Origin: a virus
Length of the DNA: 32,239 bases
IMG/VR virus record: IMGVR_UViG_3300028844_006068
Location: 1 to 32,239 of that record
Reading direction: 5' to 3' (one strand)
Shown here: positions 4,077-28,106 of the stretch, piece after piece
How the letters are laid out: each line of letters begins with the position of its first letter
How positions within the stretch are numbered: the stretch's first letter is position 1
Notes under the pieces: model-generated
What the model saw: the letters and a program-made list of their open reading frames with translations, nothing else
The model's database searches: none
What the model was told of the DNA's origin: nothing
Made by a program: the position numbers and the translations under genes

Positions 4077-4706
4077 ATGAGTTTCAATTCATTTGATAAC
4101 CCACAACTGAAATTTAAAAAACGATCAAATATGTATAGCAATTCAACCGGCACGAATACGTTCTATCCTGAGACACTTAGTGCTTACTCTTACTCGTGGT
4201 GGCAATATTTGAAAAACTTCAATGGCACTTTAGTCTTCAATGATTACAGCTATAGCCCGTCAACGTCGAGTCACCAGTGGAAATTAGAGTCACTCCTTAA
4301 AGAGCTAAACATAAAAATTGACCTTTATGTAAACCAACGCCAAAGCCTCTCAAAAGGAATCGACGTTGAACACCTTTATGAAGAGCACTTTAAAGAGCTT
4401 GAAAGGTTTGAGAACGTGAAACTCGGAGAAGATAAGAGACTCAACGCTTTCAATGAAGCTCAATACATATTGACCAAAATCGACGCGCTTCGAAAATATG
4501 GAGCGAAGTGCTCAAAGGAGCGCCAAAAAGAAATTCAAGCTCAAGTAAAGGAGCGCGAAAAACGCAGAAAAGAAGAACAGCGCGCGAAATATCTTGAGAG
4601 AAAAGCCAAAGTTAAAGCTTTGGAGCCTGAATTGAAGTCACTAGACTCCATTGATTTAGGCTTTTCAAAATTGAGTGATTTAAATGAAGTGAATATAAAC
4701 CAATGA
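4077..4706 (+). CDS. Phage protein with SYSWW motif and C-terminal coiled coil
   Basis: 209 residues. Residues about 35-75 hold a conserved-looking block: SYSWWQYLKNFNGTLVFN, then DYSYSPSTSSHQWKLESLLKEL. I associate this pattern (aromatic SWW, VFN, S-T-S-HQ) with a family of uncharacterised phage proteins. Residues about 95-185 form a long, highly charged helix or coiled coil (KERQKEIQAQVKEREKRRKEE). There is no membrane segment and no catalytic motif I can name. AAAGGAG lies seven bases before the ATG, two bases after the previous stop. Probably an early protein of unknown function. Confidence 0.7.
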   Translation: MSFNSFDNPQLKFKKRSNMYSNSTGTNTFYPETLSAYSYSWWQYLKNFNGTLVFNDYSYSPSTSSHQWKLESLLKELNIKIDLYVNQRQSLSKGIDVEHLYEEHFKELERFENVKLGEDKRLNAFNEAQYILTKIDALRKYGAKCSKERQKEIQAQVKEREKRRKEEQRAKYLERKAKVKALEPELKSLDSIDLGFSKLSDLNEVNINQ

Positions 4707-6342: not shown

Positions 6343-6564
6343 ATGAGTAAAACTAACTATGGTGAAAAACGAGACTACAAAAAGATAGACCTTTTTTATG
6401 CTGGGGATTACTTCGCAACAACAACTTGGGCTAAAACATGTAAAGAGGCTGTTGAAAAATGTATTGAGAATATTGAAACTAGAAGTCACCAGTTGGGCGG
6501 CATCGGCTTAGTTGAAAAACAGGTACTTAAAAATAAGCACTTATTAAAAGGGAGGTTTCAATGA
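6343..6564 (+). CDS. Hypothetical small protein
   Basis: 73 residues, unknown family. After a charged N-terminus comes KKIDLFYAGDYFATTTWAKT, then KEAVEKCIENIETRSHQ and a basic end. The layout (strand, TT-W segment, helix) resembles many small phage proteins of unknown role. AGAGGAG lies seven bases before the ATG. The stop overlaps the start of the XRE regulator by four bases (ATGA), suggesting coupled translation. Confidence 0.6.
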   Translation: MSKTNYGEKRDYKKIDLFYAGDYFATTTWAKTCKEAVEKCIENIETRSHQLGGIGLVEKQVLKNKHLLKGRFQ

Positions 6565-7272: not shown

Positions 7273-7412
7273 TGGGAAAAGTTTATATTGTAACGGGCGA
7301 GGGGCAAACGGGCTCCAAACATTATTTTAAATTGGGGGCCGCTTTGGCGTATATTAAAAAATTAATGGAAGCGGGCTATGGGGCTTCAATATCTGTAAGG
7401 GGGCAAAAATGA
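7272..7412 (+). CDS. Tiny hypothetical protein
   Basis: 46 residues (MGKVYIVTGEGQTGSKHYFK...), below usual ORF cut-offs. The ATG overlaps the lipoprotein stop (TAATG). The sequence predicts a strand (KVYIVTGEG), a helix (LGAALAYIKKLMEAG) and a strand (GASISVRG). This compact beta-alpha-beta order with Lys- and Gly-rich turns looks like a real mini-domain. No function is assigned. It is the last clearly supported gene of the rightward block before the terminator at 7784. Confidence 0.55.
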   Translation: MGKVYIVTGEGQTGSKHYFKLGAALAYIKKLMEAGYGASISVRGQK

Positions 7413-7414
7413 GG

Positions 7415-7576
7415 TTACTTATTTTTCTTTTGCTGGGCTTCCCAAATAGACTTCTTTTTGTCAATCTCTTTGGGGGTGTCCCCAAATTTGGTAAGATTAG
7501 GCTTGGCTTGTCCAACGCCATAGCGTTTATTTTTCGATTGAAAGCCTGCTTTAAATTTTTCCCACGCGGACGCCAT
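7415..7576 (-). CDS. Small basic protein on the opposite strand
   Basis: 53 residues (MASAWEKFKAGFQSKNKRYG...IWEAQQKKNK), soluble, Lys-rich. AAGGAG lies six bases before the ATG at 7576, and a promoter-like pair TTGCCA-N18-TAAACT stands just upstream. A competing plus-strand frame (7409-7702) is Leu/Phe-rich, as expected for the complement of a Lys-rich gene, so I favour this one. The motif KPNLTKFGDTPKEID has the look of a short conserved phage protein, but I cannot name it. It stands alone, convergent with the rightward block. Confidence 0.55.
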   Translation of the reverse strand: MASAWEKFKAGFQSKNKRYGVGQAKPNLTKFGDTPKEIDKKKSIWEAQQKKNK

Positions 7577-7606
7577 GCCTTGCTCCTTTTACTCTTTGTC
7601 GGTATT

Positions 7607-7636
7607 AGTTTAGGATTGTTTGAGGGTATTTGGCAA
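7607..7636 (-). promoter_or_regulatory. Candidate promoter for the 7415-7576 gene
   Basis: On the minus strand TTGCCA (7636-7631) and TAAACT (7612-7607) are separated by 18 bases and stand about 30 bases before the ATG at 7576. It is a moderate sigma70 match read by eye. Confidence 0.35.
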
Positions 7637-7706
7637 CCTTGGCCTTTGATCGACTACTTGCAGGATTGTATCCAAGGCAAAGAAGAGTTTAGGTTATTTT
7701 GATGAG

Positions 7707-7727
7707 TTATCCACAGACTTATCCACA
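7707..7727 (+). other. Two perfect DnaA boxes in direct repeat
   Basis: TTATCCACA occurs at 7707-7715 and again at 7719-7727, same strand, 12 bases start to start. This is the consensus DnaA binding sequence of many bacteria. A third, inverted copy (TGTGGATAA) is at 11023-11031. Confidence 0.65.
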
Positions 7728-7749
7728 TTTTTGATTTTATTACATGCTC

Positions 7750-7772
7750 TGTTTTGGCACCGTGCCAGAACA
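7750..7772. repeat. Near-perfect palindrome
   Basis: Arms TGTTTTGGCAC (7750-7760) and GTGCCAGAACA (7762-7772) surround a single central C at 7761. All eleven positions pair except one T-G. With a one-base centre it is better suited to binding a dimeric protein, or to cruciform extrusion, than to forming a tight RNA hairpin. It lies between the DnaA boxes and the first terminator. Confidence 0.7.
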
Positions 7773-7783
7773 TTGCGTTGGGT

Positions 7784-7816
7784 GGCCTCAGACCGGCGGG
7801 TTTGGGGCCTTTTTTT
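7784..7816 (+). terminator. Strong intrinsic terminator of the rightward block
   Basis: GGCCTCAGACC (7784-7794) pairs with GGTTTGGGGCC (7799-7809) over eleven positions, two of them G-U, with tetraloop GGCG, followed by seven T (7810-7816). It ends rightward transcription from the small-gene block before the minus-strand primase gene. Confidence 0.85.
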
Positions 7817-7873
7817 GTGGTCTCTGGCCCGTTGGACCGTTTGATTTCCTATTTAATATAATATTTTTTATCC

Positions 7874-7895
7874 CCCCTCTTTTTAGGGGCTTTTT
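7874..7895 (+). terminator. Second, weaker plus-strand terminator
   Basis: CCCCT (7874-7878) and AGGGG (7885-7889) form a five-pair stem with a six-base loop, followed by C and TTTTT (7891-7895). It backs up the terminator at 7784. Confidence 0.5.
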
Positions 7896-7946
7896 ATGTT
7901 TTAGTTCTTATAAAAAAAAAATATATTAATTAATACTAATATTTAC

Positions 7947-8172
7947 TGGCCCAAGTGTCCAAAGATAGGTCAAACCCGCCCCCCGCAACACTTTCCCGCT
8001 GGCCCATCGCTCCCCCGCCACACGGTCCACTGGCCCATCACAAACGGTCCAACACAATTGACTCACCACGCAGACTCATCGTGCCATGTGACGCCGTACA
8101 GCACTCGACGCTTCACACCATTGATTCGGGTCCGTTTGTGGCCCATCACTTTGTCTTTTTGGCCCATCACTT
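7947..8172. repeat. Dispersed TGGCCCA(TCAC) repeat, five copies
   Basis: Copies start at 7947 (TGGCCCAAG), 8000 (TGGCCCATCGC), 8031 (TGGCCCATCAC), 8139 and 8160 (both TGGCCCATCACTT). Two copies lie inside the end of the primase-helicase gene, where on the minus strand they encode the repeated VMGQK / VMGHK. Three lie beyond its stop. GGTCC or GGACCG words accompany several copies. The spacing is irregular. They could be origin iterons or decayed tandem duplications. Confidence 0.55.
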
Positions 8173-10486
8173 CTCGGGCCCCTAACACGCCATATAATCT
8201 CTTGGAAAAAGTTCGAAATGCCACGGGGCGTTCTTCAAGATCTTTGCAGCGTTTTGCGTAAGAAGTAAACATTTCCTCAACATCGGCACAGGGGTTGCCA
8301 TCCTTATCTTTTGTCATCCAATCGGGCGCGCTTCCCGTATCATTATTAATGGGCTCCCCGACTTCTATGTGATCGGCCACCCAGCGAGCCACAGAGTCCA
8401 TGTCTTCCTTATATTCTATCAAGGCATCCCTTACGGCCCTGGAGTCAGTGAACTGGTATTCACGCTCCCTGAGGGCGTGATAAGCGTTAAGCACTAGATT
8501 TAAAACGCCGGGCAATTCATTCTCAATGACGCGCTGGTCTATATTTACATCAATATTTCCTAACTCATGTGAGAATTTTGCGTTAAAGGGCACGATTAAA
8601 AGCCTACGAAAAAAACCGTGATTGGGGTTAGCTCCCTTGGGAAGCTCGTTACAAGTCATTATGAATTTGGCTTTGTTGCAGAAGGAATAGGGATCTTTAA
8701 ATTTTCTGCTTGCGGTAACAGCGGCGCCTGTGACAAGTCCTTTGATGAGTTCCCAAACATCTTTTTCAGTAAACGATGGCACCTCTTCCAAAATATTAAA
8801 TAGGGCACCGTCCAGGGCTTGTAAATGGAAGGCATTTTGTAGGTCTCGCACGCCGAGAGAAGTAACCGCGTCTCCCCCAAGCGCCCGGAGTATATTAAGG
8901 AATCTCGACTTTCCATTTTGACCTTCCCCCGTGCATACCAAAATTTTGTCTGCCCTGGGATCGTCGTTTGAAAGACAATACCCCATGTATTCCAACAAAT
9001 TAGCTTGGAGTGTCTTATCTCCGCACGTAACGCCATCAAGCATAGTTGTGAAGGTTGGAGCATTGGCTTCCTTATCATAGTTAAAATCAAGGATTGCTTT
9101 AAATCCGAACTTTTTGTCATGGGGCTCTAACTCCATTGTATCAATATTTAGTACACCATTGGCAAGATTCAGCCGACGGTTTGTGGATTTTCTAAACCAC
9201 TCTGGGTTTTGTAGGTTTGTGCGCTTTACTTTACCCCGAAATTCATTGGCCATGGTGTTTTTAGCCTTGGGGTAGAAGTATTCTTCGGCGAAATTATCAA
9301 TATAAACATCCGACAACTCTTGCCAGTGGTTTTCCGTGTACTGGTAGTGGACGTTGTTGACGTTTAAGTAAGGCTTGTTTTTGTTATAAAACTTTTTTAA
9401 GTCGTCGTACTGCGGTGTAAGACTTCCCTTTGCGTTAAGAGCATGAAACCCTGAATGAGCAGTGGCGATAAAGTCTTGACCTTTAATGGCAATGGGAGAT
9501 CGGAGTTTCTTGTAATGCACACACTTACTGCATCCTTTCCACATGCTATTAATATTGTCGCATGTCCTGGGACCACTAGCTCCAAGAGATTGTTCCGCCT
9601 TTCTGTTAGTAACAGTTTCGTTGTAACTTGGGTGATATTTTGAGTAGTCATGAACCTTTTCCTTTCCGCCTTCAAGGCGTGCCACGATACTTAGCATCGC
9701 GTACCATTGGGGCTCTGACATTTCTTGCTGGTTTTCTTTTGCCCATTTTAAATATTCGCACTCATCTTCAACAGAACTTGTGTCAACACGCAAGTACGAA
9801 AGCTCCCTTTCACTAATAAAATCTTTTTCTGTTAACAAGGGCAGACCACTTGCCTTTTGTAAATCTAAATCAATCGCTTCCAGATGCGAGTGTAAAAGCT
9901 TGACCCAAACCTTTGGGCGGTCAGGCTTTATGTTTAAGGTAAGGGGCAGCCTAAACATTCGGTTTGGTGCAAAGACCGCTGCATCGGCCACCCCTTGCAA
10001 GCCCTTGTCACGCAATCGGTCGTTGATCCTGGAGCAAAGGACTTGATAATAGATTCTATTTTTATCAAAAAAATCAATATCTTTTATGGGGTTCTTAAGC
10101 CTGACAACAAAATGATACCCGCCGCCACTTAGTATTTGTAAAATGCTTTCTTTTTGAACATTGATTGCATCGGCTAACACTTCAAGATAAGCTTCGTCTA
10201 ACTTATCGTCGCGGTTGTGGGGTATCCCGTCTATATCGAACATGATTAGTTCTTGGGTGCCCCACGCTTTTTCTTTCCGCCCTTCCGGAGTATCTGGAAC
10301 ATTGTGTAACGTACAAAATAAATTATATCGCTCACTTTCAGGAATGTTGTTGACCGTATCATTAATACTAGATAACAAGTCTTCAATAGTATTGAACACT
10401 ATATCCGGGGTTAACGGTGCGTCGTATTTCTTTGGCGCTGTTTGGCCTTTTGGAATAAATTCACGTAGCTTTCTTATCTGTATCAT
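8063..10486 (-). CDS. Primase-helicase (archaeo-eukaryotic primase + SF3 helicase)
   Basis: 807 residues from ATG 10486, which has GAGGGG six bases upstream; a TTG at 10513 would add nine residues without a good site. It makes primers and unwinds DNA at the fork. The N-terminal prim-pol domain shows FDIDG (83-87, the metal-binding acids), GGGYH (121-125) and an Arg-rich third motif (NRMFRLPLTLN, 175-185). Cysteines C309, C319 and C322 suggest a small zinc site. A D5/P4-type helicase follows: Walker A GEGQNGKS (520-527), Walker B NILEE (564-568), TCNE sensor (611-614) and paired arginines 627-628. The final ~35 residues are basic and repetitive (VMGQK, VMGHK). It lies alone on the minus strand beside the origin candidate. 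Confidence 0.92.
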   Translation of the reverse strand: MIQIRKLREFIPKGQTAPKKYDAPLTPDIVFNTIEDLLSSINDTVNNIPESERYNLFCTLHNVPDTPEGRKEKAWGTQELIMFDIDGIPHNRDDKLDEAYLEVLADAINVQKESILQILSGGGYHFVVRLKNPIKDIDFFDKNRIYYQVLCSRINDRLRDKGLQGVADAAVFAPNRMFRLPLTLNIKPDRPKVWVKLLHSHLEAIDLDLQKASGLPLLTEKDFISERELSYLRVDTSSVEDECEYLKWAKENQQEMSEPQWYAMLSIVARLEGGKEKVHDYSKYHPSYNETVTNRKAEQSLGASGPRTCDNINSMWKGCSKCVHYKKLRSPIAIKGQDFIATAHSGFHALNAKGSLTPQYDDLKKFYNKNKPYLNVNNVHYQYTENHWQELSDVYIDNFAEEYFYPKAKNTMANEFRGKVKRTNLQNPEWFRKSTNRRLNLANGVLNIDTMELEPHDKKFGFKAILDFNYDKEANAPTFTTMLDGVTCGDKTLQANLLEYMGYCLSNDDPRADKILVCTGEGQNGKSRFLNILRALGGDAVTSLGVRDLQNAFHLQALDGALFNILEEVPSFTEKDVWELIKGLVTGAAVTASRKFKDPYSFCNKAKFIMTCNELPKGANPNHGFFRRLLIVPFNAKFSHELGNIDVNIDQRVIENELPGVLNLVLNAYHALREREYQFTDSRAVRDALIEYKEDMDSVARWVADHIEVGEPINNDTGSAPDWMTKDKDGNPCADVEEMFTSYAKRCKDLEERPVAFRTFSKRLYGVLGAREVMGQKDKVMGHKRTRINGVKRRVLYGVTWHDESAW

Positions 10487-10619
10487 ATAATGCCCCTCAG
10501 GATGTCTAGACAACGACCAAAACTTGTTGAAAAATAAGGATCGTGAAAACTTGACAATTAGTCAAGCTTATCCTAGTTTGCAAGCACCGCGACACGTTGC
10601 AAGCAACAGGGGGTTCTAT
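10487..10619. promoter_or_regulatory. Divergent promoter/operator region
   Basis: This short spacer separates the leftward primase-helicase from the rightward block. A perfect -35 TTGACA (10551-10556) is followed after 17 bases by a weak -10, TAGTTT (10574-10579). The -35 is embedded in a dyad CTTGAC (10550-10555), AATTA, GTCAAG (10561-10566). A direct repeat TTGCAAGCA stands at 10578-10586 and 10597-10605, 19 bases apart (about two helical turns), overlapping the expected transcription start. These are good candidates for an operator and a second regulator site. Confidence 0.55.
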
Positions 10620-10963: not shown

Positions 10964-11101
10964 ATGATTGAATTAATAATGGTGCTGTTAATGCAAGCAC
11001 AGATAGAAGATGAATACGCAAATGTGGATAACTCTGGGGATATTTACTGTGCAATGTTATTAAGAGGGGATTATGGAGACGAGATTAGATATACAGACTG
11101 A
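10964..11101 (+). CDS. Possible tiny protein with hydrophobic N-terminus
   Basis: 45 residues, ATG directly after the lipoprotein stop (TAGATG). The start MIELIMVLLMQAQIEDEY could be a short signal or membrane anchor, followed by an acidic tail (NVDNSGDIYCAMLLRGDYGD). It overlaps the oxygenase-like gene by 29 bases. The only ribosome-binding help is coupling to the upstream gene. The frame also contains an inverted DnaA box at 11023. This is weakly supported and could be leader sequence. Confidence 0.35.
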   Translation: MIELIMVLLMQAQIEDEYANVDNSGDIYCAMLLRGDYGDEIRYTD

Positions 11102-20723: not shown

Positions 20724-21123
20724 GCATTACATCATAAAGGCCCTTGAGCTTAGTATCTTGGGCCTCTAATTTTTCTTGTATCCACATTATTTTGCCGTAG
20801 TTTTGAGTGGACTTTGCAATGTCAGGGCGCATGCGTGCCATGTCCCCTTCAACTTTCGAAAGCCCGTCAAGAAGAGCTTTCATCCTGGCTTTTGTACTCG
20901 TGTCGAATGCTGAGTTTCGTAGGTCTCTTTCAATTTGTGCTTTGAAAGTGTTTAAGGTAAGGGCCTGGGTGTCTACTTTTTCCCGTAAAATTTTAAAAGA
21001 TCTACGGGTTTCTTTTTGGAAGGCATCATTTTGTTCAATTAATCTTTTTAAAAGGTAGGCGACTAACCCGAAAACACAGGTCATTCCGCCGCCAACAAGG
21101 ATATTAATAAGAACTTTTTCCAC
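20695..21123 (-). CDS. Membrane-anchored coiled-coil protein (spanin/holin-like topology)
   Basis: 142 residues, GTG start at 21123. One transmembrane helix at about residues 5-27 (INILVGGGMTCVFGLVAYLL) is followed by a long helical, coiled-coil region (AFQKETRRSFKILREKVDTQ ... LEAQDTKLKGLYDVMLKIV). N-terminal anchor plus coiled coil is the layout of i-spanins and of some phage lysis accessory proteins. It is the last gene of the late leftward block, a usual place for lysis genes, but no endolysin is next to it. Its end overlaps the convergent gene at 20723. Confidence 0.6.
   Translation of the reverse strand: MEKVLINILVGGGMTCVFGLVAYLLKRLIEQNDAFQKETRRSFKILREKVDTQALTLNTFKAQIERDLRNSAFDTSTKARMKALLDGLSKVEGDMARMRPDIAKSTQNYGKIMWIQEKLEAQDTKLKGLYDVMLKIVHSQKP
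20738..20774 (+). terminator. Possible terminator for the rightward block
   Basis: AGGCCC (20738-20743) and GGGCCT (20760-20765) form a six-pair stem with a 16-base loop, followed after CTAA by five T (20770-20774). It lies just beyond the last plus-strand gene but inside the minus-strand coding sequence, so the pairing could be coincidental. Confidence 0.35.
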
Positions 21124-21464: not shown

Positions 21465-23443
21465 TATTTTCTCTCCTTAACTTGTTCCCAAAGGTTAATA
21501 GCCCCTTGAGGTATAGGGCTCATGTTTTGCATTAATTGTCCGCCTTGCCTCACTTTATTTCCGGCCTCTGCGTATCTTCTAAGATTAGCAGGACTTGCCA
21601 ACTTTCTACCAGCTAAACCAGCAATAGCCGCTGTTAAGAATGGAGACATACCAGGCACCTCTTGGCCTATTGTGTACCCAGCGTACCCAGCACCTAAACC
21701 TAACGCCGCCTCTTGTGCCGTAGCCGAAGATCCGCCAACGTATTTTGCCGCAGATGCAGGTCTTCCAAACTGACTTAACGTGTACATGTCATTTGCATAC
21801 TCGGGAACATCTACACCCAGGGCTTTTCCCATTTCTTCCATTTGGGCTCGTCGCTCAAAGTTTGCTTGGCTTTGTAAATTTCTTAAGTGCCCCTCGGCCT
21901 TCTTTGGGTCATCGGCGTATGTTTTTACAGTGTCCCCAATTTCATAGAGTTTATTGTATTGGCCTTTTACATTCTTAAATTCTTGACCCATAAGAGTGTC
22001 ATCTAAGGACTTATTCACATCGTCTACTACTTGTTTAGAAACGCGAACTAAATCCTGGTCAACTTTACTCATGCCTTGGACGTTTACATTTTTTCTAATT
22101 TTTGTAAGATCATTTAGGTTATCCATATAACCAACAATGTCTTTTCCTTGTAGTAGGTTTGTATCCCCACCGCCTCGTGTGTACTGGCTAATGGTGTCTT
22201 TTAAGTGCAAGTAATTTTGAACGTCAATTTTTTCTAAGTCTTTAGCACTTTTTTCAGCCAAGTCGTCCGCTGCTTTAAGTGGTCTTCCCAACTCATCAAC
22301 AAAACCCACAGACTCTTCGCCAGCATCCTTTAGTCTTTGCTCAAAACCAGGCACAGCCTCTTCCGCTTTTAAACGATACTTTTCCAAGAGATCGTATAAA
22401 GGTTTTTCGGCGTTTGTGGCATCAACTTCAACGTCTAAAGATTTTAAAGACTTGCCGTAAACTTCCCCAAGAGCATCTTTTTTGGCCTTAAAAGCTGCTT
22501 TTAAATCAGACACAAAAGCCCTTGGAACTTCCGAAGGATCTACCGACATAAGACCAGATGCGACCCTTTCCCTTAAGTTTTTCATGGCCGCTGGTGTATA
22601 ATTACTGGCCCAAGATGCAAGGTGAGGCGTCGAAGCATTTACCATTTTCCCAACACCACGAGTGAGAACACTTCGTTGGGCGTTGATAACTTGCTTCATT
22701 GCTTTTTCTGCACCCTCTTCCCCAAGCTCTGAGATCAATTTCTTTTTTAGCCCTGATTTTAAAAAGTGTTTTGAGGCGCCACCAGTCCCAAGGAGTAAAG
22801 GGGCTGCTGCACCAAAAGTCGCAGACCAGCCTATCATTCCGGGGTCGTACTCTTTGGCAACACCTGTGGCTTTACCTATGGATTGTCTGATACCTTCCGT
22901 TGTGGCACCTGCCATTGCACCCGCACCCATTGCGCCAGCCATTGCACCCGCAGGCACAGTTACGGGAGCCGCAGGACCTCCCCCCAAACCAAGAGTCGCT
23001 CCGGCGACGCCGCCTGCTGTGGCCGCCATTGTTTCCGCCGTCGCCGCAGGTATGTCGTAACCAACATCTACAATATCCATAAGCTCCGGGCTGTATGCTT
23101 TATTTTCAGGGTCCACTTTTAGCCACTCTTTCTCGTCGGCTCTTTTTACAATCATGTCGCCTTTTTCATCCCGGTCAAATTCTAAGTCAGGATGCTCCCG
23201 CTCCATGTACTCGAGACCTTGTTGTGGATTTACGGCAAAGTTTTTATAAAGGGCGCGACTTACTAAAGATACATCTGGGTGTCTTTCATTTTTTACTTTT
23301 CGTTGTAACCTATATGTAATTGGGTCTCTTCCACGCTCCCCGCCCATTGGGATATTTTCTTGGAAGTCAGACCACGGCCCCGCCACCTCTTTTACAGTAT
23401 CTTTTGTTTCAGTTTCTTGAAAGTCTTCCCAAGGTCCGCCCAT
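21464..23443 (-). CDS. Large ejection/internal virion-type protein
   Basis: 659 residues from ATG 23443 (GGGAG eight bases upstream; TAATG overlap with the previous gene); a GTG five codons earlier is the alternative. The N-terminus has two copies of a GPWxDFQE motif (GGPWEDFQE, AGPWSDFQE). About residues 130-200 are Ala/Gly-rich and hydrophobic (ETMAATAGGVAGATLGLGGG, AGAMAGAMGAGAMAGATTEG), enough to insert in a membrane. The rest is long helices (ESVGFVDELGRPLKAADDLA) with a second hydrophobic segment near the end. Such proteins in short-tailed phages are ejected to extend the DNA channel across the host envelope. Role inferred from composition and position. Confidence 0.7.
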   Translation of the reverse strand: MGGPWEDFQETETKDTVKEVAGPWSDFQENIPMGGERGRDPITYRLQRKVKNERHPDVSLVSRALYKNFAVNPQQGLEYMEREHPDLEFDRDEKGDMIVKRADEKEWLKVDPENKAYSPELMDIVDVGYDIPAATAETMAATAGGVAGATLGLGGGPAAPVTVPAGAMAGAMGAGAMAGATTEGIRQSIGKATGVAKEYDPGMIGWSATFGAAAPLLLGTGGASKHFLKSGLKKKLISELGEEGAEKAMKQVINAQRSVLTRGVGKMVNASTPHLASWASNYTPAAMKNLRERVASGLMSVDPSEVPRAFVSDLKAAFKAKKDALGEVYGKSLKSLDVEVDATNAEKPLYDLLEKYRLKAEEAVPGFEQRLKDAGEESVGFVDELGRPLKAADDLAEKSAKDLEKIDVQNYLHLKDTISQYTRGGGDTNLLQGKDIVGYMDNLNDLTKIRKNVNVQGMSKVDQDLVRVSKQVVDDVNKSLDDTLMGQEFKNVKGQYNKLYEIGDTVKTYADDPKKAEGHLRNLQSQANFERRAQMEEMGKALGVDVPEYANDMYTLSQFGRPASAAKYVGGSSATAQEAALGLGAGYAGYTIGQEVPGMSPFLTAAIAGLAGRKLASPANLRRYAEAGNKVRQGGQLMQNMSPIPQGAINLWEQVKERK

Positions 23444-27318: not shown

Positions 27319-27609
27319 CTAGCTCCCATGCTCATTGCTATCAACGGTTTCTCGTGAGTTATCAGAAATTAACTTCGTGCCCCGTGTGTCACGGATTCTC
27401 CAAAAGAAGTGCCCGACCAAAATCCCAGGGATAAAGCCACAGGTAAACGTAAAAATCGGGTATTTATACGACCACTCAAACATCATATAACTAATGCTTG
27501 CCTCCGTTCCCCCCTCTAAAATTGCGTACACGTCGTACCCAATCCAAGAAATGAAGAAAATAAGCACCGAAATGAGGGTAAAACAGGCCGTTTTTGACTT
27601 AATATTCAT
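27319..27609 (-). CDS. Two-helix membrane protein, holin candidate
   Basis: 96 residues with two membrane helices: about 8-30 (ACFTLISVLIFFISWIGYDV) and 50-70 (YPIFTFTCGFIPGILVGHFF), and a hydrophilic C-terminus. A GG-EASIS stretch connects them, and GHFFWR ends the second helix. Short phage membrane proteins of this shape (D-YA-GG-ATIS ... G-GHLFW) are widespread, frequently called holin-like, without proof. The ATG overlaps the previous stop (ATGA). The endolysin expected beside a holin is not visible. Confidence 0.65.
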   Translation of the reverse strand: MNIKSKTACFTLISVLIFFISWIGYDVYAILEGGTEASISYMMFEWSYKYPIFTFTCGFIPGILVGHFFWRIRDTRGTKLISDNSRETVDSNEHGS

Positions 27610-28106
27610 GCTAAAAACCCCGCTATTTTGTTCTTAAAATCAGTCATCCTGGCGTCAGTCATAAAAGGAGCCAAGGTCGGGTCAATCCCTGCGGCAATTA
27701 AACGGTCAATTTCAGCCATTACTTCGTATAAACTATAAGATCTCATGTAATAATTTAGGTCCCTTAACTCATCGGCTACAGCTTTTGTTTTTCCCGCTTG
27801 AGTAATACCCATGGCAATATTTTCTGCTGCAAATTCGTAGATCATTTCTTTTACAAATTTATCCACATCTTTTTCCAGGTATAAAGCCATTTGTTCTTCA
27901 AGCGTTGGGGCGTCTACGAACCCATTTATAAAGGACGTGAGATCCGTATCTTGTTGAGCCGAAGGCTCCTGGGTCAAAATAATAGTAAGTTGATTACCAA
28001 GTAATCTACACTTGTCGTAAATGGGGCCCACAGAAACGTCTTCTTTCAATTGGTCGCTAAACACACCGAGGAAGTTTATTGTCTTTGTAAAGTTTCTTTC
28101 AGCCAT
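27606..28106 (-). CDS. Hypothetical virion-block protein
   Basis: 166 residues, mostly helical and acidic: RNFTKTINFLGVFSDQLKED, LEEQMALYLEKDVDKFVKEM, IYEFAAENIAMGITQAGKTK, YYMRSYSLYEVMAEIDRLIA. No family is recognised. It sits between the fibre-type protein and the holin candidate, overlapping both by 1 to 4 bases. A structural or chaperone role is possible by position alone. Confidence 0.6.
   Translation of the reverse strand: MAERNFTKTINFLGVFSDQLKEDVSVGPIYDKCRLLGNQLTIILTQEPSAQQDTDLTSFINGFVDAPTLEEQMALYLEKDVDKFVKEMIYEFAAENIAMGITQAGKTKAVADELRDLNYYMRSYSLYEVMAEIDRLIAAGIDPTLAPFMTDARMTDFKNKIAGFLA

Follow-up and report, generated by a model that had tools for sequence, protein, structure and literature searches.

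What are two perfect DnaA boxes doing in the genome of a phage that encodes its own replication proteins, and does replication start beside them? This question is raised by IMGVR_UViG_3300028844_006068, a linear virus record of 32,239 bases that we analyzed over its whole length and hereafter call the window. Because it encodes a terminase (matching that of G015 at 69%), virion proteins and a family-A DNA polymerase, in addition to a SNF2-type helicase and a D5-type primase-helicase, the window is a phage and not a satellite; it does not share the lack of a full virion and packaging gene set that defines a phage-inducible chromosomal island (PICI) as a whole element. The primase-helicase (D5_N plus DUF5906 helicase) is encoded on the − strand at 8063-10489, with its stop at 8063.

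The boxes, both TTATCCACA on the + strand, occupy 7707-7715 and 7719-7727, 12 bp from one another, so that the pair forms a 12-bp direct repeat (GAGTTATCCACA/GACTTATCCACA). The original prediction was right to single them out: the window holds four perfect copies of TTATCCACA against 0.27 per dinucleotide shuffle, and two perfect boxes at most 50 bp apart appeared in 0/1000 dinucleotide shuffles of the window. The third copy, at 11023-11031 (−), is 41 bp upstream of a gene starting at 11073, possibly inside a short ORF, and the fourth, at 27859-27867 (+), is inside the gene 27606-28106. A box context copied from a host oriC was considered and rejected, the 29-bp context being absent from the GTDB genome collection.

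The location of the pair is indeed gene-free, in that no credible gene overlaps it: the + strand ORFs 7409-7702 and 7744-7929 look spurious, and the nearest good ORF, found beyond the boxes, is a small basic one of 53 aa (7415-7576, − strand) with a good ribosome site (AAAAGGAG) upstream. Two other elements of the description hold only in part. The boxes had been placed in AT-rich DNA, but the AT-rich tract, which does exist nearby (7849-7945, 82% A+T), lies 120-240 bp rightward, and the whole interval 7576-8062 is 57% AT; they had also been placed next to the end of the primase-helicase gene, and the distance to the stop of that convergent gene is about 335 bp. The small ORF invites a reading in which DnaA bound at 7707-7727 would be a repressor or a roadblock, either silencing this leftward gene or blocking an origin until phage functions displace it. 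The boxes are indeed upstream of the ORF, at a distance of about 130 bp, and a weak promoter-like match is present at 7636-7607, but the boxes do not overlap this match, and the gene, a short one, shows no clear conservation; we consider such a role improbable.

Adjoining the boxes, and extending up to the primase-helicase stop, is a larger structure that had been missed, composed of an AT tract, iterons and an inverted repeat. From the gene towards the boxes, one successively meets the ATGGGCCA iterons with the CAAACGGTCCAAC arm, the AT tract, the TATTAAATAGGAAATC motif at its far edge and, 100-125 bp outside this iteron core, the tandem boxes. The iteron ATGGGCCA is found on the − strand at 8000-8007, 8031-8038, 8139-8146 and 8160-8167, the last two copies lying within the primase-helicase gene, at its 3′ end. 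A 13-nt inverted repeat without mismatches (I4) has its near arm CAAACGGTCCAAC at 8041-8053 and its far arm GTTGGACCGTTTG, an outer iteron, at 7831-7843, on the DnaA-box side of the tract; the tract itself is a putative DNA unwinding element, judging from its composition and from the inverted repeat I1. The motif TATTAAATAGGAAATC (7843-7858, − strand) stands at the tract edge, where it abuts the far iteron, and is near-identical in the relatives L104, L106 and L126; the far-edge motif TATTAAATAGGG(A)AATC is common to four of the six nearest genomes. With an 8-mer repeated four times, the primase 3′ flank exceeds all 306 other 500-bp segments of the contig.

Origins of PICIs lie 3′ of the initiator gene, always have their iterons in two sets, one on either side of an AT-rich region, and are functional in a plasmid test (PMC6092414). 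The structure described here is likewise immediately 3′ of the primase-helicase gene, its candidate initiator, and has iterons on both sides of the AT-rich region, although the far side, with just the 13-nt arm and a GGGCCA, is weaker than in L104 or L126. The window also presents what one would look for in a DnaA-dependent origin as far as its own sequence goes, namely consensus DnaA boxes near an AT-rich putative unwinding element. A terminator-like hairpin (7784-7809, + strand; 11 pairs, then a T7 run), a consensus match of a kind not above its number in shuffled sequence, might keep rightward transcription out of the origin. A second rightward terminator-like hairpin is seen at 7874-7889, within the AT tract, and both hairpins separate the rightward early genes from the origin.

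The same layout recurs in relatives, which we found by DNA-polymerase and primase searches of IMG/VR and which have about 25-63% primase identity. A single 8-mer occurs four or more times in 32/67 of their primase 3′ flanks (the 67 include a few redundant ones) vs. 27/2660 background windows, and in 28 of the 32 positive loci, no other window of the locus attains that 8-mer count. The layout is constant while the iteron sequence changes from phage to phage: GCCAGCACA in L104, then TTGGGACA, TTACTTGGCA, GCGGTTCC, CCTGCACA, GAACAAGAG and others elsewhere. The repeats usually flank an AT-rich tract, and several sets start inside the primase gene. When GTDB genomes were searched for primase relatives, a single 43% match was obtained, the MAG locus L315, which has the iteron layout of the window and no DnaA box in the stretch read. 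In one relative (L107, genome G004), the primase-helicase is in two pieces, at contig positions 6793-7323 and 7341-9044, which is either a frame break or a split gene.

Strand composition is informative here only once gene orientation is dealt with. The cumulative GC skew, proposed as a check of the original prediction, has its raw minimum at 4351 and its maximum at 21059, and the minimum does not coincide with the boxes. Raw skew follows gene orientation and has no switch at 7.7 kb; it was therefore rejected as an origin marker and replaced by an orientation-corrected skew at third codon positions (GC3). With genes called by a simple longest-ORF rule, so that all values are approximate, the strongest switch from C-rich to G-rich in the window falls at 6400, 1.5 kb from the tract (about 7900); it is at 8900 in G004 (tract at about 9400), at 21600 in G012 (about 22400) and at 27700 in G009 (about 27900); in G001, the maximum is elsewhere, not at the site. 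The peak is thus at most 1.5 kb from the site in 4/5 genomes, as one expects of an origin, and in the window, G004 and G009, both gene orientations shift in the same direction near it, which supports bidirectional replication from this neighborhood in four of the five genomes. The claim that replication starts here is supported by the iterons, AT tract and inverted iterons common to relatives, together with the nearby orientation-corrected switch, and we hold with considerable confidence that the site is the phage replication origin. It is mainly on grounds other than those first put forward that the finding points to a real replication origin.

Which protein fires the origin is another matter. 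The closest relative, L104 (63% primase), as well as L105 and L106, retain the iteron origin and have no DnaA boxes; absence of the boxes in related phages is one of the things that the original prediction had named as counting against it, and the conservation among related origins that a DnaA-dependent origin should display was not found. We rejected DnaA as the conserved initiator: it is unlikely to play that part because these near relatives keep the iteron origin without boxes. In its strongest form, the DnaA hypothesis makes the host protein the main initiator, which would bind the boxes, melt the AT tract and load the host replicative helicase as at oriC, leaving only elongation to the primase-helicase. 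The presence of perfect boxes close to the AT-rich tract would fit, as would the skew switch, but there are just two boxes, about 120 bp from the tract, the iterons are conserved and the boxes are not, and the phage encodes its own primase-helicase and polymerase; we find this form very improbable.

A weaker role of DnaA fares better when iteron origins of the group are considered together. Using TTWTNCACA, the E. coli DnaA box consensus (PMC5124646), within −150 to +400, we found sites in 7/29 iteron origins, most having none. The 29 origins contain 11 sites vs. 2.6 in composition-preserving shuffles (0/400 reach this number), nine vs. 2.4 expected without the window (1/400 shuffles), and eight vs. 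2.4 without the window and L107 (0/400 shuffles), these P values being somewhat optimistic because TTTTCCACA variants, a form known as a cyanobacterial DnaA box (PMC4674748), were adopted after being seen. There was no excess of DnaA-type sites in the primase flanks without iterons, and for exact TTATCCACA alone, without the window, the excess was not significant (62/400). Among individual loci, L126 (G001) and L142 (G009) each have one TTTTCCACA, beyond the far iterons; the perfect TTATCCACA of L107 (G004) is inside a Q-rich coding sequence, for which reason the boxes of this locus were discounted as evidence. After the window, the strongest case for DnaA involvement is L110, with its near-duplicate L120, where TTATCCACA, TTTTCCACA, TTATACACA and a near-box TTATCCACG are found among GGACAGCA iterons, 144-329 bp past the primase stop. 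Because the boxes are not conserved and yet TTWTNCACA is enriched in iteron origins, DnaA-type sites are probably, on this sequence comparison, an optional and repeatedly present accessory of these origins, carried by a minority of the related phages.

One has to weigh against this how frequent such pairs are in viruses at large. The original prediction held that phages with their own replisome do not usually carry intergenic consensus DnaA sites, which is doubtful as a generality: tandem TTATCCACA pairs are not rare in viral contigs, TTATCCACA-N3-TTATCCACA being present in at least 120 IMG/VR stretches, and among the sites listed, most are outside any ORF of at least 100 aa and beside unrelated genes. 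In 80 of these contigs, the fetched stretch never encodes the primase family of the window, and a scan of ten proteins neighboring tandem boxes revealed no replication initiators. The pair often takes the form AGTTATCCACAGGTTTATCCACAG in IMG/VR loci L183-L262, several of which share a longer context, with AGATTAATCTT after the pair. It can thus be argued that the origin is real and wholly phage-driven, the boxes being bystanders that arose by local 12-bp duplication or by capture and have no part in replication. The nearest relatives do keep the origin without boxes, the pair is a 12-bp direct repeat, and the same tandem form is common beside unrelated genes; but two perfect boxes so close together do not arise by chance (0/1000), and DnaA-type sites are enriched in the other iteron origins of the group after control for composition. 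We judge this bystander explanation rather unlikely, and we lean, with some reserve, towards an origin at which the phage primase-helicase initiates replication and, in some lineages, DnaA boxes are an accessory.

The primase-helicase is the proposed initiator. Its best sequence match in the PDB is 7ola/7om0, labeled “DNA primase” (E 2e-18), which we take to be the SaPI5 primase-helicase. Its last 180 residues are predicted to fold as a winged helix in a model built from just six sequences, with a mean pLDDT of 68.5 and values of 80-93 for most of residues 91-170; the closest folds in the PDB are those of RFX DNA-binding domains (target TM 0.76-0.77 at a probability of 1.00), followed by lower matches to Orc1/Cdc6 and ASFV PrimPol, with E no better than 1.6e-3 for these fold matches. 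A likeness of the tail to calmodulin in a direct sequence search against the PDB consisted of weak matches and was taken as chance. Directly after the FxKRL helix, sequence and length differ strongly among phages, as one would predict were every tail specific for the iteron of its own phage.

With the primase-helicase as the favored initiator, 7700-8170 would be the phage's own origin, of the PICI/SaPI satellite kind. The C-terminal winged helix may bind the ATGGGCCA/TTGGACCGTTTG repeats flanking the AT tract; by analogy with SaPI and P4, the helicase would then assemble, melt the tract and prime both forks, and the phage family-A polymerase probably continues synthesis. The tandem boxes would be an accessory element, where bound host DnaA would most likely help to open or remodel the origin, or tune it to the host, a role modeled on the DnaA boxes beside iterons in plasmids. 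A bolder proposal, which we put forward only tentatively, is that of a class of hybrid origins: tailed phages that encode a primase-helicase and a polymerase of their own would use a PICI-type iteron origin to which DnaA boxes were repeatedly added, host DnaA co-licensing initiation and tying it to the replication state of the host.

Since the satellite-type origin is common in the tailed phages considered here, a single replicon type probably serves satellites and phages alike, the iteron being private to each element and the DNA-binding tail variable. The primase 3′ flanks L104-L167, from about 30 phages each having its own iteron and a variable C-terminal tail, form a large natural data set from which the recognition of repeats by tails could be decoded, and the repeat search is a simple computational route to origins in uncultured phages. 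The DnaA boxes, for their part, pose a testable question: do some of these phages take their cue from the initiator of the host?

Among known systems, the closest are the PICI/SaPI origins (SaPIbov1, SaPI1, EfCIV583, EcCICFT073), which, like that of the window, are directly 3′ of a (primase-)helicase initiator gene and have two sets of element-specific iterons around an AT-rich tract. The window-type origin differs from them in belonging to tailed phages, which encode a terminase, virion proteins and a family-A polymerase, and in that some members of the window group add DnaA boxes, whereas the text of PMC6092414 does not mention “DnaA” for PICIs. As positive controls, the Streptococcus satellites Javan379 and Javan761 have 8-mer repeat scores of 9 and 7; the Streptococcus phages YMC-2011 and Javan628 score 4 and 5, and in Sfi19, with a low 8-mer score, inspection by eye shows AGTTACTTAGTTACT-type repeats to either side of an AT tract. 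Marinobacter PS6 is borderline, and the iteron layout is absent from Carvaje, R9Y1, LMAVpSH, JCL1032, Shewanella 1/44 and IME-EF4. The Streptococcus phages (Sfi19/Sfi21 group, YMC-2011, Javan628) resemble the window in that an AT-rich tract flanked by repeats follows the primase gene, but their primases are merely 23-27% identical and the stretches examined have no DnaA boxes. Phage P4, whose alpha protein is a fused primase-helicase as in the window, uses two separate sites, ori and crr, whereas the window has one compact site 3′ of the gene. The title of Ziegelin 1993, as cited in PMC9611036, describes alpha as recognising origin repeats. Finally, the theta origins of iteron plasmids (P1 oriR, F ori2, RK2 oriV, pSC101) have, like the window, iterons, an AT-rich region and DnaA boxes next to one another. 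The Rep proteins of these plasmids, which are not primase-helicases, load the DnaB helicase of the host, and an arrangement of the iterons in two sets around the AT region is not known for them. In these plasmids, DnaA acts jointly with the plasmid initiator, which the DnaA boxes assist (PMC4980987).
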